Shown here: positions 2-5,137 of the stretch, piece after piece
Layout of the letters: every line of letters begins with the position of its first letter
Numbering within the stretch: the first letter of the stretch is position 1
Assembly (NCBI GenBank): GCA_030650265.1
Contig: JAUSEJ010000544.1
Location: forward strand, 1 to 5,137
Direction of reading: 5' to 3'
Length of the DNA: 5,137 nt
DNA from: Dehalococcoidia bacterium
GTDB taxonomy: Bacteria > Chloroflexota > Dehalococcoidia > JACPQF01
Translations under genes and position numbers: made by a program
Notes under the pieces: generated by a model
Database searches by the model: none
The model's input: only the letters and a program-made list of their open reading frames with translations
What the model was told of the DNA's origin: nothing

Positions 2-2647
2 AACGAAGGCCTTTCCAGGCGGAGCGCGGTGCATATTCTCTACCCGCAAGCGGTCCCTCTCAAGGCCGTTATTGATCCGGCGGTTTGCCTCTGGCTGAAG
101 AACGGCAAGTGCGTAAAGACCTGCCAAAAAGCCTGCGGCGTAAACGCTATCGACTTCGATCAACAACCCCAGACGCTCGATCTCAATGTCGGCGCTGTGG
201 TGTTAGCCCCTGGTTTCAACATATACAACGCCAGGCAGTCAGAGGAATTCGGCTATGGCCGCTACGCCAACGTCGTGACGGCCATTGAGTTCGAGCGACT
301 TCTCAGCGCGTCCGGGCCGACCAATGGCCACATCACCCGCCCTTCGGACAAGCAGGAACCCAAACGCATAGCCTTCTTCCAGTGCGTCGGATCGCGGGAT
401 CAGAACCACAAGTATTGTAGCTCGGTCTGTTGCATGTACGCCACGAAAGAGGCGATGCTGGCCATGGAGCATGTCCCAGGTGTGGAATGCCAGATCTTCT
501 TTATGGACATGCGCGCCTTTGGCAAGGGTTACGATGCCTTCTTTGAGAGGGCCAAGTCGCAGGGCGTCAAGTACACTCGCTGCCGGATATCCTCGGTAAA
601 AGAGGTGCCCGGCTCCAAAGAACTGTTAATAAAGTACCAAAGCGAAGATGGAGAAATGCGGCTGGAGACGTTCGACCTCGTTGTTCTGAGCGTCGGCATG
701 GAACCACCAAAAGGTGCGGCGGAACTCGCTGCGATTACGGGGATCGAACTCAACGAACACGGCTTCTGTCGAACCAATCCATTGAACCCGATTGAAACAA
801 GCAAGCCAGGCGTATTTGTCTGCGGCACTTTCGCTGAGCCAAAGGACATTTCGGAGAGCGTGACCCAGGCCAGCGGCGCCGCGGGGGCTGCCCTGCAGAC
901 GATCGGGACCGCCCGCGGCACTCTCGTCGAGGAGAAGGTCTATCCCCGCGAGTTGGCCGTCGAAGGAGAAGAGCCAAGAATCGGCGTCTTCGTCTGCCAC
1001 TGCGGCAACAACATCGCCGGTGTCGTAAATGTACCGGATGTCGTCGAATACGCCAGGGGTCTACCCGGAGTAGTACATGCCGATAATATCATCTACGCTT
1101 GCGCCGCGGACTCTCTCAAGGCTTTGCCTGAGACAATTAAGGAACATCGCCTGAACCGGGTGGTAGTCGCTAGCTGTACGCCCAGAACCCACGAACCCCT
1201 ATTTCAAGACACCCTGCGTGAGGCGGGCCTCAATCCCTACCTGTTCGAAATGGCCAATATCCGCGACCAATGCTCCTGGGTCCATAGTAAAGAGCCTGAA
1301 AAAGCCACGGATAAATCAAGGTCTCTCATCAAAATGGCCGTTTGGCGGGCCAGCACTCTGGAGCCAATCCATGAGACAAAGTTAGAACTCAACCACAGGG
1401 CTCTGGTAATAGGTGGCGGGGTTTCCGGCATGACCTCAGCTCTCAGCCTCGCCAGCCAGGGCTTTCAGGTGTTTCTGGTCGAGCGGGACAAACAACTAGG
1501 CGGCAATCTGAGGAACCTGAGCAGTACAGTTCAGGGAATCGACCCCAAGTCCTATGTAGAATCCCTGCTCAAACAAATTGCGGCGGCGCCACTTATCGAA
1601 GTACTGACAGGGGTGGCTGTTGCCAAAGTCGAGGGATTCATCGGCGCCTTTAAGACAACCCTGGAGACAGTAGATAGCCCCATTCAACGGCTCATCGAGC
1701 ACGGCGTAACCATCGTGGCCACGGGAGCACAAGAGTACCGCGGCAGCGAGTATCTCCTTGGTCAGCACCCCAACATCATTACTCAGGGCGACCTCGAAGC
1801 CAGGCTCTCACCGGATGGATCCGGTATCCCCAATGCCAGGTCGGTTGTGATGATCCAATGTGTGGGCCCCTGGGCCGAAAAGGAGTTCTATTGCAGCCGG
1901 GTCTGCTGCGGCGTGGCTGTGAAGAACGCCCTCCGCATTAAGAGACTTGATCCGTCCACCCAGGTTTACGTTCTCTACTGGGAGATGCGAACTTACGGAT
2001 TCAAGGAAGACCTGTACACGAAAGCGCGAGAAGAGGGGGTCATTTTCGTCCGCTATGACAGGGCCAACCCGCCGGTCGTGCAGGACACCGACTCCGGCGT
2101 CCGCGTTGAAATCACCGATCCGATTCTAAACGAGCGGCTTCAGTTGAACCCTGACTATCTGGTCCTATCCACGGCGATGGTTCCAAGGCCGGAGGGGATA
2201 GCACTGGCGCCTATCTTGAAGGTACCACAGTCGCGCGAGGGCTTCTTCCTCGAAGCGCACATCAAGCTTCGTCCAGTAGATTTCTCGTCGGAAGGAATGT
2301 TCCTTTGTGGTACCGCCCATTATCCGAAATTCATTAGCGAATGCGTGGTCCAGGCCGCGGCGGCGGCAGGGAGGGCAGCCACTGTCCTAACCAAAGAAAT
2401 GCTCACCGCCGGAGCTATCGTCGCCGTCGTGACCCCGGAGAAGTGTACGGCCTGTCTCACTTGCGTGAGGGTCTGCCCGTTCAGCGTGCCTTTCATTAAC
2501 GCAGAGGGATTAGCCGAGATCAGAGCTGCTGAATGCCGCGGCTGTGGCATTTGCGCATCCGAATGTCCGGCCAAGGCCATCGAGATCCTGAATTACAAGG
2601 ACAGGCAGATCGTCGCCAAGACGGACGCTCTGCTCAGCGGTTTCTAA
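2..2647 (+). CDS. hdrA: HdrA-like iron-sulfur flavoprotein, two-module form, 5' end outside window
   Basis: Flavin and Fe-S subunit of a cytoplasmic heterodisulfide-reductase-type complex; in this family HdrA is the FAD-bearing electron hub and the site of flavin-based bifurcation. The frame is open to the window edge. A GTG at 29 could be called as a start, but the codons before it continue typical HdrA sequence (SRRSAVHILYPQAVPLKAVID), so the gene starts upstream. Residues counted from that GTG: an Fe-S motif at C20/C28/C32/C36; the rest of a first FAD module with CVGSRD at 119-124, CSSVCC at 130-135 and a GTFAEPKDISESV tail; then a second, nearly complete HdrA unit with CHCG at 323-326, CTPRTHEPLF, a GGGVSG Rossmann loop at 462-467, CVGPW at 611 and CSRVCC at 622-627; finally two C-terminal [4Fe-4S] motifs at C806/809/812/816 and C836/839/842/846. 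Relatives are roughly 1000 residues, so probably 100-150 residues, including the first GxGxxG loop, are missing. The family call is firm; the electron partners are inferred. Confidence 0.95.
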   Translation, partial: NEGLSRRSAVHILYPQAVPLKAVIDPAVCLWLKNGKCVKTCQKACGVNAIDFDQQPQTLDLNVGAVVLAPGFNIYNARQSEEFGYGRYANVVTAIEFERLLSASGPTNGHITRPSDKQEPKRIAFFQCVGSRDQNHKYCSSVCCMYATKEAMLAMEHVPGVECQIFFMDMRAFGKGYDAFFERAKSQGVKYTRCRISSVKEVPGSKELLIKYQSEDGEMRLETFDLVVLSVGMEPPKGAAELAAITGIELNEHGFCRTNPLNPIETSKPGVFVCGTFAEPKDISESVTQASGAAGAALQTIGTARGTLVEEKVYPRELAVEGEEPRIGVFVCHCGNNIAGVVNVPDVVEYARGLPGVVHADNIIYACAADSLKALPETIKEHRLNRVVVASCTPRTHEPLFQDTLREAGLNPYLFEMANIRDQCSWVHSKEPEKATDKSRSLIKMAVWRASTLEPIHETKLELNHRALVIGGGVSGMTSALSLASQGFQVFLVERDKQLGGNLRNLSSTVQGIDPKSYVESLLKQIAAAPLIEVLTGVAVAKVEGFIGAFKTTLETVDSPIQRLIEHGVTIVATGAQEYRGSEYLLGQHPNIITQGDLEARLSPDGSGIPNARSVVMIQCVGPWAEKEFYCSRVCCGVAVKNALRIKRLDPSTQVYVLYWEMRTYGFKEDLYTKAREEGVIFVRYDRANPPVVQDTDSGVRVEITDPILNERLQLNPDYLVLSTAMVPRPEGIALAPILKVPQSREGFFLEAHIKLRPVDFSSEGMFLCGTAHYPKFISECVVQAAAAAGRAATVLTKEMLTAGAIVAVVTPEKCTACLTCVRVCPFSVPFINAEGLAEIRAAECRGCGICASECPAKAIEILNYKDRQIVAKTDALLSGF

Positions 2648-2699: not shown

Positions 2700-2705
2700 A
2701 GGAGG
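2700..2705 (+). promoter_or_regulatory. Ribosome binding site of mvhD
   Basis: AGGAGG, a full Shine-Dalgarno core, ends 4 bases before the ATG at 2710. It fixes the mvhD start there. An upstream in-frame ATG at 2533 lies inside hdrA and would add a stretch that does not resemble MvhD. Confidence 0.8.
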
Positions 2706-2709
2706 ATTT

Positions 2710-3186
2710 ATGAGTCCCAGTGATACATTCGAACCGGAGATAATCGGCTTTGCCTGTCACCATTGCGCCTTTGCAGCCGCCGATCTCGCCGGTTCTATGC
2801 GACTATCGTACCCGACCAACGTCAAGATCGTGCGCCTTCCTTGCACGGGCAGGCTCGACATCACTCACGTGCTAAGAGCCTTCGAGGCCGGCGCCGACGG
2901 TGTCTTTGTCGCTGGCTGACTGGAAGGCACATGTCATTACCTGGAAGGTAATATACACGCTAAGAGACGGGTCAAATATATCAAAGAGATACTCGAATCC
3001 ATCGGAATCGAAGGCGAGCGCCTCAGTATGTTCAATATGTCTTCGGCTGAAGGGCAACGCTTCGCTCAGATCGCCAGCGACGTGACCGATAAGATCCGGG
3101 CGCTGGGACCGACTCCAGTGAAGGGGCGAAGGGCGGGGAGCGACTCGCCATGCGAACCCGCCTTATCGGCCAATAACTCAAAGTAG
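2710..3186 (+). CDS. mvhD: MvhD/hydrogenase iron-sulfur subunit, probable selenoprotein (UGA = Sec at residue 70)
   Basis: Small [2Fe-2S] electron carrier (MvhD/FlpD family) that binds HdrA and links the Hdr complex to an electron donor or acceptor. The ATG follows AGGAGG. The first 69 residues are typical: GFACHHCAFAAADLAG near 13-28 with C16 and C19, then RLPCTGRLD with C45, then GADGVFVAG. The next codon is TGA at 2917-2919. Without any frame change the sequence goes on as LEGTCHYLEGN, AKRRVKYIKEILESIGI and SSAEGQRFAQIASDV, all recognisable MvhD, ending at TAG 3184-3186 (158 residues including residue 70). Cysteine-type homologues read G-C-x-x-G-x-C-H-Y here, so UGA replaces a conserved Fe-S ligand cysteine, the hallmark of selenocysteine. 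VhuD of some methanogens is a known selenoprotein of this family. A hairpin suited to a SECIS follows. The gene lies 62 bases after hdrA and 18 before metV, so it is probably co-transcribed. The tail after about residue 131 (KALGPTPV-like region onward) is low in family signal. The alternative is a Cys-to-stop mutation, which I find much less likely. Confidence 0.9.
2917..2919 (+). other. In-frame UGA, predicted selenocysteine codon
   Basis: TGA at codon 70 of mvhD is flanked by GVFVAG upstream and LEGTCHY downstream in the same frame. It takes the place of the cysteine in the MvhD motif G-C-x-x-G-x-C-H-Y. The following base is C, and UGAC is a weak termination context that is also found at the E. 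coli fdhF Sec codon. There is no start codon or ribosome binding site just after it that would allow a separate downstream gene: the first in-frame ATG comes about 40 codons later, inside conserved sequence. Confidence 0.85.
2932..2957 (+). promoter_or_regulatory. Candidate bacterial SECIS element
   Basis: The six-base stem ATTACC (2936-2941) pairs perfectly with GGTAAT (2947-2952) around the loop TGGAA (2942-2946). Below a small asymmetric internal loop (C2935 opposite A2953, T2954), TGT 2932-2934 pairs with ACA 2955-2957. The apical loop begins 22 bases after the UGA and has G at its second and third positions. This fits the known bacterial pattern of a coding-region hairpin shortly after UGA with a G among the first two loop bases, which is bound by SelB. 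The hairpin also encodes the conserved HYLEGN stretch, so its sequence is partly constrained by the protein. Hand-folded only. Confidence 0.65.
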
Positions 3187-3204: not shown

Positions 3205-3873
3205 ATGATCAAGGCTCAGCAAAAGCCTATTGACGAGATACGCGGCATGCTGGGTAGCGCCAAGAAGGTCCTCGTTTTTGGCTGTGGCACCTGCGTAACA
3301 ATCTGCTTCGCCGGTGGGGAGAAAGAGGTTTCTATTCTCAGCTCACTGCTGCGCATGGCCGAGGACATTGACAACGGCGACAGGCAGTTCCGCGAGCATA
3401 CAGTCAAGAGGCAGTGCGAATGGGAATTCCTCGACCAGGCTGCCGATGAAGCCAAGGACGCCGACCTCATCATTTCCTTGGCCTGTGGCATTGGCGTTCA
3501 GGCCACAGCCCAGCGCTTCCCTGATAAAACCGTCGTTCCCGGAGTGAACACCGCCTTTCTTGGCCTCATTTTGGAGCAGGGCGTTTGGAGCGAGCGATGC
3601 GTCGCTTGCGGTGACTGCGTCCTGAGCACGACCGGTGGCATCTGCCCGATAGTACGCTGCAGCAAGAGCTTGCTAAATGGCCCTTGTGGAGGCTCTGTCA
3701 ATGGCAAGTGCGAAATCTCGCCCGATGTCGAATGCGCCTGGCAGCTAATCGTTGACAAACTTACGGCCTTCGGAAGAGAGGACGAACTGGAACAGATCGC
3801 GCCTCCAAAGGACTGGAGAACCAGCCAGAGTGGCGGTCCAAGGAAAATCGTGCGGGAGGATCTTAGGATATGA
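3205..3873 (+). CDS. metV: MetV, cysteine-rich partner of methylenetetrahydrofolate reductase
   Basis: Methylenetetrahydrofolate reductase C-terminal-domain protein (MetV), the zinc/Fe-S subunit that partners MetF in acetogens and related anaerobes and passes electrons to or from its flavin. The 222 residues show GCGTCVTIC at C27/C30/C34, then RQCEWEF (C71) and SLACGIGVQ (C94). The diagnostic cysteine block follows: C132-x2-C135-x2-C138, TGGICP (C147), C152, LLNGPCGG (C161), C169 and C177-x-W. These cysteines are expected to hold [4Fe-4S] clusters and zinc. ATG 3205 is the only usable start in this frame, because the mvhD stop at 3184-3186 is in the same frame and no other start codon lies between. 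GGTGA at 3193-3197 is a plausible ribosome binding site 7 bases upstream. The 18-base gap to mvhD and 4-base overlap with metF indicate one operon and probably a MetVF heterodimer. Length and motifs look intact. Confidence 0.93.
   Translation: MIKAQQKPIDEIRGMLGSAKKVLVFGCGTCVTICFAGGEKEVSILSSLLRMAEDIDNGDRQFREHTVKRQCEWEFLDQAADEAKDADLIISLACGIGVQATAQRFPDKTVVPGVNTAFLGLILEQGVWSERCVACGDCVLSTTGGICPIVRCSKSLLNGPCGGSVNGKCEISPDVECAWQLIVDKLTAFGREDELEQIAPPKDWRTSQSGGPRKIVREDLRI
3854..3860 (+). promoter_or_regulatory. Ribosome binding site of metF inside metV
   Basis: GGGAGGA lies within the last codons of metV, 9 bases before the metF ATG at 3870. Together with the ATGA stop/start overlap it supports coupled translation of the two subunits. 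Confidence 0.7.
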
Positions 3874-4796
3874 AGTCTGGAAGCAACCTGGAAAAAGTGC
3901 TGGCAGCAGGACACTTTGCCGCCACTTCCGAGCTAGGTCCTCCCAAGAGCGCCAATCCCGCGGTCGTGCGCGAGAAGGCCAAATTCCTGCGCGGCTACAT
4001 TGACGCGGCCAATATTACCGATAATCAAACGGCAATCGTGCGAATGTCCAGCGTGGCGGCCGCCTACATAGCTCTGTCTGAAGGCGTGGAACCGGTAGCC
4101 CAGATGACCTGCCGCGACCGGAACCGCATTATGATGCAAAGCGACATCCTGGGCATGGCGGCCCTCGGCATCAAGAACCTACTCTGCCTTAGCGGCGACC
4201 ATCAGAGCTTCGGCAACCATCCGGGCGCCAAGAACGTCTTTGACATCGACTCCATCCAACTGCTGCAAATGGTCAAGAATATGCGGGACGATAAGAAGTT
4301 CCAGTGCGGCGACGCGATAGACGTCGAGCCCCGATTGTTCATAGGCGCCGCTGCCAATCCCTTCGCCGACCCATTCGATTTCAGAGTCATCCGGCTTGGC
4401 AAGAAGATCGCCGCCGGGGCCGACTTCATCCAAACCCAACTGGTTTTCGACGTGGACAAGTTCGCCCGATGGATGGAGGGCGTTAGAGAGCGAGGCCTGC
4501 ACAAACAGGTCAAGATTTTGGCGGGCGTCGGTCCGATCAAATCGGTCGGCGCCGCCCGCTATATGAAGAACAGGGTAGCCGGCATTGACGTCCCGGACGA
4601 AATTATCGCCAGAATGGCCGGTGCTCCCAAAGGCAAGGCCAAGGAAGAGGGCCTCAAGATCTGCGTGGAGATCATCCAGAGACTAAAATCAATCGAAGGG
4701 GTGGCCGGGGTGCACATCATGGCCATCGAGTGGGAAGAGGCGATTGCTGAGATCACCGAGTCGGCCGGACTTCTGCCCCGCCCTATACTAGACTAA
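3870..4796 (+). CDS. metF: 5,10-methylenetetrahydrofolate reductase
   Basis: Flavin-dependent TIM-barrel enzyme that interconverts methylene- and methyl-tetrahydrofolate, the last step of the methyl branch of the Wood-Ljungdahl pathway; cytoplasmic. At 308 residues it has the usual family length. Visible active-site features are TSELGPPKS with the probable catalytic Glu at residue 21 (E. coli E28 equivalent), QMTCRDRNR with D83 (E. coli D120 equivalent), the LLCLSGDH strand at 105-111, and FIQTQLVFD with Q190 (E. coli Q183 equivalent). LAGVGPIKS near the C-terminal third is also typical. The start ATG overlaps the metV stop (ATGA), preceded by GGGAGGA. The adjacency to metV and hdr genes points to the MetVF type, which receives electrons through Fe-S partners, rather than a stand-alone NADH-dependent enzyme. 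No disruption is seen. The physiological direction cannot be told from sequence. Confidence 0.95.
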   Translation: MKSGSNLEKVLAAGHFAATSELGPPKSANPAVVREKAKFLRGYIDAANITDNQTAIVRMSSVAAAYIALSEGVEPVAQMTCRDRNRIMMQSDILGMAALGIKNLLCLSGDHQSFGNHPGAKNVFDIDSIQLLQMVKNMRDDKKFQCGDAIDVEPRLFIGAAANPFADPFDFRVIRLGKKIAAGADFIQTQLVFDVDKFARWMEGVRERGLHKQVKILAGVGPIKSVGAARYMKNRVAGIDVPDEIIARMAGAPKGKAKEEGLKICVEIIQRLKSIEGVAGVHIMAIEWEEAIAEITESAGLLPRPILD

Positions 4797-4852
4797 GTGA
4801 CGACCGCAATGGAGACGCCGGTTGCGTCCTGATGCGATTGCCTGAATGATTT

Positions 4853-4856
4853 GGAG
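4853..4856 (+). promoter_or_regulatory. Ribosome binding site of hdrC
   Basis: GGAG ends 6 bases before the ATG at 4863. It decides between two in-frame ATGs: the one at 4857 directly abuts GGAG with no spacer, so 4863 is the likelier start. Confidence 0.65.
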
Positions 4857-4862
4857 ATGACT

Positions 4863-5137
4863 ATGACCACCGCAATAGCAACAGAAAACATAGTTGAGGT
4901 TATCCGGAGAGAGTGCGGCGAAAAGGTGATGCTGTGCTACCAATGCAAGAAATGCACAGTCGGCTGCCCCGTAGTCGATGAGATGGACCTGAAACCAAAC
5001 CAGATCATGCGAGCCTTACAGTTCAATCAGATCGACAGGGTGCTAAACTCCAAGACAATCTGGCTGTGCGCCAGTTGTAAAACTTGCACAACGCGCTGCC
5101 CCAACGATATCGATATCACCGAGATAATGGACTACCT
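4863..5137 (+). CDS. hdrC: HdrC-like heterodisulfide reductase subunit C, 3' end outside window
   Basis: Small cytoplasmic ferredoxin-like subunit that carries electrons between HdrA and the catalytic HdrB subunit. The 91 visible codons hold both [4Fe-4S] motifs of the family: CYQCKKCTVGCP with C25/C28/C31/C35, and CASCKTCTTRCP with C69/C72/C75/C79. The linker contains KPNQIMRALQFNQ, which matches the usual HdrC helix between the clusters, and the second cluster is followed by DIDITEIMD, also typical. HdrC proteins usually run to about 150-200 residues, so roughly half is missing. The gene starts 66 bases after metF, and hdrB would be expected next. The two-cluster architecture could in principle belong to another 4Fe-4S dicluster protein such as a GlpC/LutA-type N-terminus, but the context with hdrA and mvhD favours HdrC. 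Confidence 0.92.
   Translation, partial: MTTAIATENIVEVIRRECGEKVMLCYQCKKCTVGCPVVDEMDLKPNQIMRALQFNQIDRVLNSKTIWLCASCKTCTTRCPNDIDITEIMDY

Follow-up and report, generated by a model that had tools for sequence, protein, structure and literature searches.

The in-frame UGA at positions 2917-2919 of the window (the whole 5,137-nucleotide stretch of DNA that was analysed) is very probably a selenocysteine codon, and the gene that contains it, mvhD, would thereby encode a full-length MvhD subunit with selenocysteine at position 70. The selenocysteine codon, the hairpin that follows it, the assignment to the family and the operon are well supported by sequence comparison. The proposal of the initial annotation that mvhD encodes a selenoprotein is supported by the Cys or UGA found at codon 70 in its relatives, by the sel genes in the genome of the nearest relative and by a TGA at the same codon in that relative's locus, L001. 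Default annotation drops half of this subunit, through which electrons would enter a methylene-THF reductase module. The features of the window are collected in the table.

Table. Features of the 5,137-nucleotide window.
Feature	Positions	Strand	Description and basis
hdrA	2..2647	+	Truncated at the left edge of the window; HdrA2 profile 775 bits, below the model's own cut-off of 1100
Shine-Dalgarno-like AGGAGG	2700..2705	+	Upstream of ATG 2710; read from the sequence
mvhD	2710..3186	+	158 codons through one UGA; full PF02662 domain; translation, profile, PDB homologues
UGA, codon 70 of mvhD, very probably read as selenocysteine	2917..2919	+	TGA in L001; Cys in homologues
Cys75 codon of mvhD	2932..2934	+	Alignments
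Predicted bSECIS hairpin in coding sequence	2936..2952	+	Stem 2936-2941 with 2947-2952; apex UGGAA 2942-2946; 22 nt after UGA
metV	3205..3873	+	PF12225 127.5 bits; ends in TGA overlapping the metF start
metF, methylenetetrahydrofolate reductase	3870..4796	+	PF02219 148.7 bits
hdrC/hdrCB start	4851..5137	+	Cut by the right end of the window; Fer4_17 and HdrC profiles

The mvhD frame runs from ATG 2710 to TAG 3184-3186, with TGA 2917-2919 as its sole internal stop, and its read-through product has 158 residues with U at position 70. Residues 11-133 of this product matched the FlpD profile (PF02662) over its whole length (1-123 of 123), spanning the UGA, with 166.2 bits (cut-off, 22.3). Translation and profile therefore agree with the earlier claim that a complete MvhD lies in this interval, interrupted only by the TGA. 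The NCBIfam VhuD equivalence model NF045873 gave the protein 165.4 bits, below its cut-off of 215; it is a member of the MvhD family and, by that model, not a VhuD. Homologues in the PDB were found by both sequence and fold (7bkb, 5odc and 8rvu), with a further fold match to 5odh. In alignments, the conserved cysteines of the domain besides position 70 are Cys16, Cys19, Cys45 and Cys75. It had also been predicted that default annotation would leave a 69-residue fragment followed by an empty gap of 285 bases. The gap was found as described, reaching from 2920 as far as the start of the following gene at 3205. The length of the fragment depends on the start chosen, since a mechanical ORF finder begins the frame at ATG 2533, inside hdrA, and yields 128 aa.

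Database homologues mostly carry Cys at position 70 (115 of the 120 listed), with Trp in one (P0003) and four left unparsed by the regular expression used; UGA occupies codon 70 in 34 of the 103 distinct downstream sequences compared. The placement of the UGA at a conserved Cys position is thus confirmed, relatives carrying Cys or UGA there apart from the single database Trp. The Trp in P0003 probably stems from a metagenome gene caller that reads UGA as Trp.

The closest relative of the window is L001, from a Chloroflexi MAG obtained from groundwater, and on this nearest neighbour alone the window is likely to belong to Chloroflexota. The whole window aligns with it in one collinear alignment (L001 3605-8724; 79.9% nucleotide identity, 17 gap positions), and the same mvhD codon is TGA in this independent MAG, which speaks against the possibility that sequencing reads might show a cysteine codon instead. 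Between the two sequences, dN/dS amounts to 0.04 upstream of the UGA and to 0.12 downstream; the second half of mvhD, like the first, is therefore under purifying selection at the protein level. Read with the ordinary code, the TGA would be a true stop, or else a sequencing error, and mvhD a pseudogene or a gene for a 69-residue protein; the frame does end there under table 11, and TGA stops the adjoining metV. This reading is nevertheless highly improbable in view of the TGA in the independent MAG, the dN/dS downstream and the position of the next stop, which comes only at 3184. Equally hard to credit is a reassigned UGA, encoding Trp or another residue, or a UGA read by an ordinary suppressor tRNA. 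The Trp70 of P0003 would fit such a reading, but TGA ends metV in the window and both hdrA and metV in L001, the hdrA, metV and metF frames of the window contain no further internal TGA, and Trp is written TGG in these three genes (5, 4 and 2 times, respectively), which makes reassignment unlikely. The position is also otherwise Cys, and a reassigned codon would have no need of the hairpin described below. On these grounds a pseudogene, a sequencing error and an altered code were rejected.

The strongest evidence for the selenocysteine reading is a predicted bSECIS hairpin in the coding sequence, AUUACC-UGGAA-GGUAAU, which the initial annotation had not named. Its stem has six pairs, or a seventh if the loop is reduced to three bases, and its five-base apex is separated from UGA70 by 22 nt. 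It agrees with four of the four bSECIS criteria given in the available text of PMC13188914, including stem, apex UGGAA, spacing of 22 nt and MFE (-8.6). After duplicate downstream sequences had been dropped, 34 UGA70 and 69 Cys70 genes could be compared. All six stem pairs are present in 34/34 of the former and 1/69 of the latter, a distribution that also speaks against a true stop. The local peptide differs between the two groups; at identical peptide, the stem was found in 34/34 versus 1/5. Codon bias follows the same division, His76 being CAT and Asn81 being AAT in each of the 34 UGA70 genes, versus 33 and 37 of the 69 Cys70 genes, respectively. Codons 77 and 80 change together (Tyr TAC with Gly80 GGT in 23 genes, Phe TTC with GGA in 11), which in the aligned genes is a compensatory A-U/U-A change. 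The resulting covariation score was reached by none of 500 shuffles; the remaining five of the six stem pairs are invariant, so the covariation hangs on one pair. The folding energy is ordinary against shuffles (z of -0.57 and -0.89), and a stem as perfect arose in 3322 of 200000 rounds of random synonymous recoding with the codon usage of the window; the weight of the hairpin therefore comes from the comparison between genes. A search of the window against Rfam, with E up to 1, gave no match.

The hairpin preceded by TGN at codon 70 was also sought as a pattern in 294 genomes of the class to which the genome of L001 (G001) belongs. It was found at 23 sites in 18 genomes, 22 with TGA and one with TGC, and the reversed hairpin pattern gave zero sites in the same 294 genomes. 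In the class of genome G005, 94 of 117 genomes contain the hairpin pattern, with TGA at every site among the matches listed. A signature consisting of TGA and then CATTWCCTGGANGGWAAT at a fixed distance would permit simple re-annotation of such genes. The one TGC site is L107:1501-1902 (genome G105), where a complete U70-type hairpin stands behind the cysteine codon. As the tree described below places L107 among the U70 genes, this hairpin is probably a relic SECIS that outlasted a Sec-to-Cys change, of the kind described for other families in the available text of PMC1794560.

The initial annotation called for a search of the source genome for selA, selB, selC and selD; run on the genome of the nearest relative, G001, this search found all four. 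G001 contains a tRNA-Sec (69.8 bits; anticodon tca according to ARAGORN), on a contig other than L001, together with SelB (327 bits), SelA (563 bits) and SelD (410 bits, with a TGA of its own). No tRNA was found by ARAGORN in the window or in L001. Genomes sampled from 63 loci were searched more widely, 28 for SelB, 15 for tRNA-Sec and nine each for SelA and SelD. SelB was above cut-off in 24 of the 28, the genome of L025 being among the four that failed, and tRNA-Sec in 13 of the 15, the two failures being the genome of L022, a U19 locus, and that of L028, which has Cys at each site. SelA was present in 9/9 genomes and SelD in 7/9, the genome of L025 again failing. In two U70 genomes, those of L025 (50 bits) and L027 (49 bits), tRNA-Sec passed only narrowly. 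The Cys-type genomes of L002 and L023 contain it as well, out of three such genomes examined. Across the class of G001, tRNA-Sec occurs in 204 of 294 genomes and in 14 of the 17 that contain a TGA hairpin (the exceptions being G053, G186 and G196). Because the trait is this common in the class, the presence of tRNA-Sec fails as a discriminating test; the machinery is compatible with the use of selenocysteine, yet it does not discriminate. All nine SelD matches above cut-off, from seven genomes that include that of L001, contain one in-frame TGA (L092-L098, L101).

The window contains, in order, part of hdrA, then mvhD, metV and metF, and it ends within the first part of hdrC. The L001 operon runs on into a fused hdrCB that encodes a 470-residue HdrCB (L001:8429-9841), and the window stops inside the homologous gene. 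The HdrABC-MvhD-MetVF gene order is thus seen as hdrA-mvhD-metV-metF in the window, completed by the HdrCB fusion from L001. In the portions of the literature that were available, the same hdrA-mvhD-metV-metF arrangement is found in the modules of Moorella thermoacetica, Sporomusa ovata and Chloroflexi DscP3, the last of which has a fused hdrCB in common with L001, and an interaction of HdrABC-MvhD-MetVF is reported for Sporomusa ovata (PMC9430772). Those portions contain no mention of selenocysteine in the MvhD of DscP3 or Sporomusa. In the mechanism suggested by these observations, SelB and Sec-tRNA(UCA) would decode the UGA at 2917-2919 under the guidance of the bSECIS hairpin at 2936-2952, and read-through would yield a full MvhD carrying Sec70. 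MvhD would act as a small [2Fe-2S] subunit from which electrons pass to HdrA; the module, HdrA-MvhD-MetVF-HdrCB, would serve the Wood-Ljungdahl pathway by reducing methylene-THF. The source cell would have the selenocysteine machinery seen in the genome of its nearest relative and the complex would form; Sec70 may lie at or beside the [2Fe-2S] cluster and tune its potential or join in electron transfer.

MvhD/FrhD/VhuD is an established selenoprotein family, and the window adds a member to it. As far as the available text of each source extends, 19 bacterial FrhD selenoproteins have been described (PMC1794560), mvhD1, 2, 3 and 5 of Desulfobacterium autotrophicum encode selenoproteins (PMC2702500) and one selenoprotein of Desulfococcus multivorans is an mvhD product (PMC5109826). 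These family selenoproteins resemble the window in their domain (PF02662), in-frame UGA and adjoining hdrA. Two differences were found. The published family motif, CxxU (PMC2398784 and PMC13188914), corresponds to codon 19, whereas the window has Cys19 and UGA70; and the text seen of PMC13188914 makes selenocysteine-containing hydrogenases, MvhD included, exclusive to sulfate-reducing and methanogenic microorganisms, whereas the nearest relative of the window is a Chloroflexi MAG. An archaeal VhuD (PDB 9sfi chain K) aligns with the window along residues 8-138 and has a nonstandard residue, X, at the positions aligned with both 70 and 19, the latter being Cys in the window; we infer that this X is selenocysteine. 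The claim that selenocysteine was already known at the present site consequently holds in part: it is favored by the X in 9sfi and by the Sec count of 2 listed for a representative MvhD/VhuD in PMC13188914, while the published CxxU places the residue at codon 19. According to the same partial source, archaea and bacteria have different SECIS elements. The Moorella selenoproteins of the 2006 survey include FrhD and HdrA (PMC1794560; the gene is unspecified in the text seen), and this FrhD may be a case linked to MetVF. The literature covered, with subscription journals for the most part and supplements outside the search, contained nothing on codon-70 selenocysteine in bacteria, on alternation between codons 19 and 70, or on selenocysteine in MetVF-linked MvhD of Chloroflexi, and this silence is weak evidence of novelty.

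Codon 19 is a second site of selenocysteine in these proteins. Most Desulfobacterota relatives have UGA19 with Cys70, and others, including the window, have Cys19 with UGA70. The 169 distinct aligned rows from all loci comprise 81 U19, 71 U70 and 14 with Cys at both sites, none with UGA at both and three missing a site, numbers that are counts and not frequencies, many loci having been fetched by patterns requiring one hairpin. A second UGA would have been compatible with the hairpin patterns, but Cys at one site is demanded by two of the six peptide patterns. Site 19 has its own element, GACCTGGCAGGT, which is present in 53/54 U19 genes versus 0/48 C19 genes, 25 of the latter having the same ADLAGS peptide. 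Cys19 genes can also fold in this region, less stably than U19 genes (mean of -4.8 versus -7.0 kcal/mol). The apex ACC-UGGNA-GGU is common to both elements, which follow their UGA at a distance of 19 nt (site 19) or 22 nt (site 70). In the class of G005, the codon-19 pattern was found at 82 sites, spread over 63 of the 117 genomes, 79 with TGA and three with TGY, and by their coordinates the three TGY sites fall in genes with UGA70. Loss of mvhD from default annotation must accordingly be widespread, given the codon-70 pattern in 18/294 and 94/117 genomes of the two classes and the codon-19 pattern in 63/117. Among 103 distinct MvhD rows, metV was found within 3 kb downstream of 43 U19, 17 U70 and 10 Cys-both genes and one partial gene; the alternation thus extends to MvhDs linked to MetV.

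A tree was built from 101 rows and 134 columns, from which duplicates (L001, L045 and L014) and partial rows (L036 and L060) were left out; it is poorly resolved, 44 of its 98 inner branches being open. As placed by their sequences, the site states cluster on this tree. A parsimony count gave 11 changes among U19, U70 and neither, a total well above what the starred branches demand (one for U19, three for U70 and three for neither). Lineages have probably switched between the two sites, for example where the U70 loci L020 and L058 lie near U19 relatives. If the alternation is true site switching, it constitutes a natural experiment on the role of selenium beside an Fe-S cluster.

The structure of the protein was also modelled. 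The fold was confirmed (mean pLDDT of 77, with only 54 for residues 71-80), and Cys16, Cys19, Cys45, position 70 and Cys75 come after three strands, at the same end of each. Positions 19 and 70 are thus probably near one another and near the cluster. A [2Fe-2S] cluster usually needs four ligands, and five positions of the domain are conserved as Cys (16, 19, 45, 70 and 75). Sec70 could accordingly be redox-active without being a ligand, for instance in a selenenylsulfide with a nearby Cys, with four of the five conserved cysteines holding the cluster; this is a real possibility, albeit a somewhat improbable one. The occurrence of selenocysteine at 19 or 70 in relatives would fit such a Cys/Sec pair, but the placement at strand ends in the predicted model suits ligands equally. 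This alternative challenges only the reading of residue 70 as a ligand, as it had first been described, and leaves its assignment as selenocysteine intact. The literature searched yielded nothing on what ligates the MvhD cluster, nor on PDB entries 9sfi and 9t1s.

A broader proposal, tentative and in our judgment rather unlikely, is that positions 19 and 70 are interchangeable selenocysteine sites in bacterial MvhD, each with its own hairpin, between which selenium has moved from lineage to lineage. The two residues would work as a pair at the [2Fe-2S] site: they would either bind one iron together or act as a selenenylsulfide relay, helping to span the unexplained gap from the cluster of MvhD to the bifurcating flavin of HdrA. 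A single selenium would be enough, and bacteria would therefore not keep two.

Both sites occur side by side in several Desulfobacterota loci, where tandem hdrA-mvhD units lie about 3.6-4 kb apart and the first MvhD is U70 and the second U19 (L018, L024, L026, L030, L035, L037, L043, L044, L047, L048, L050-L053, L055 and L059). On contigs long enough to show it, the second unit is followed by metV. UGA19 was also observed in MetV-linked MvhD outside the usual sulfate reducers, in L022 (FCB group bacterium) and L033 (Myxococcales).
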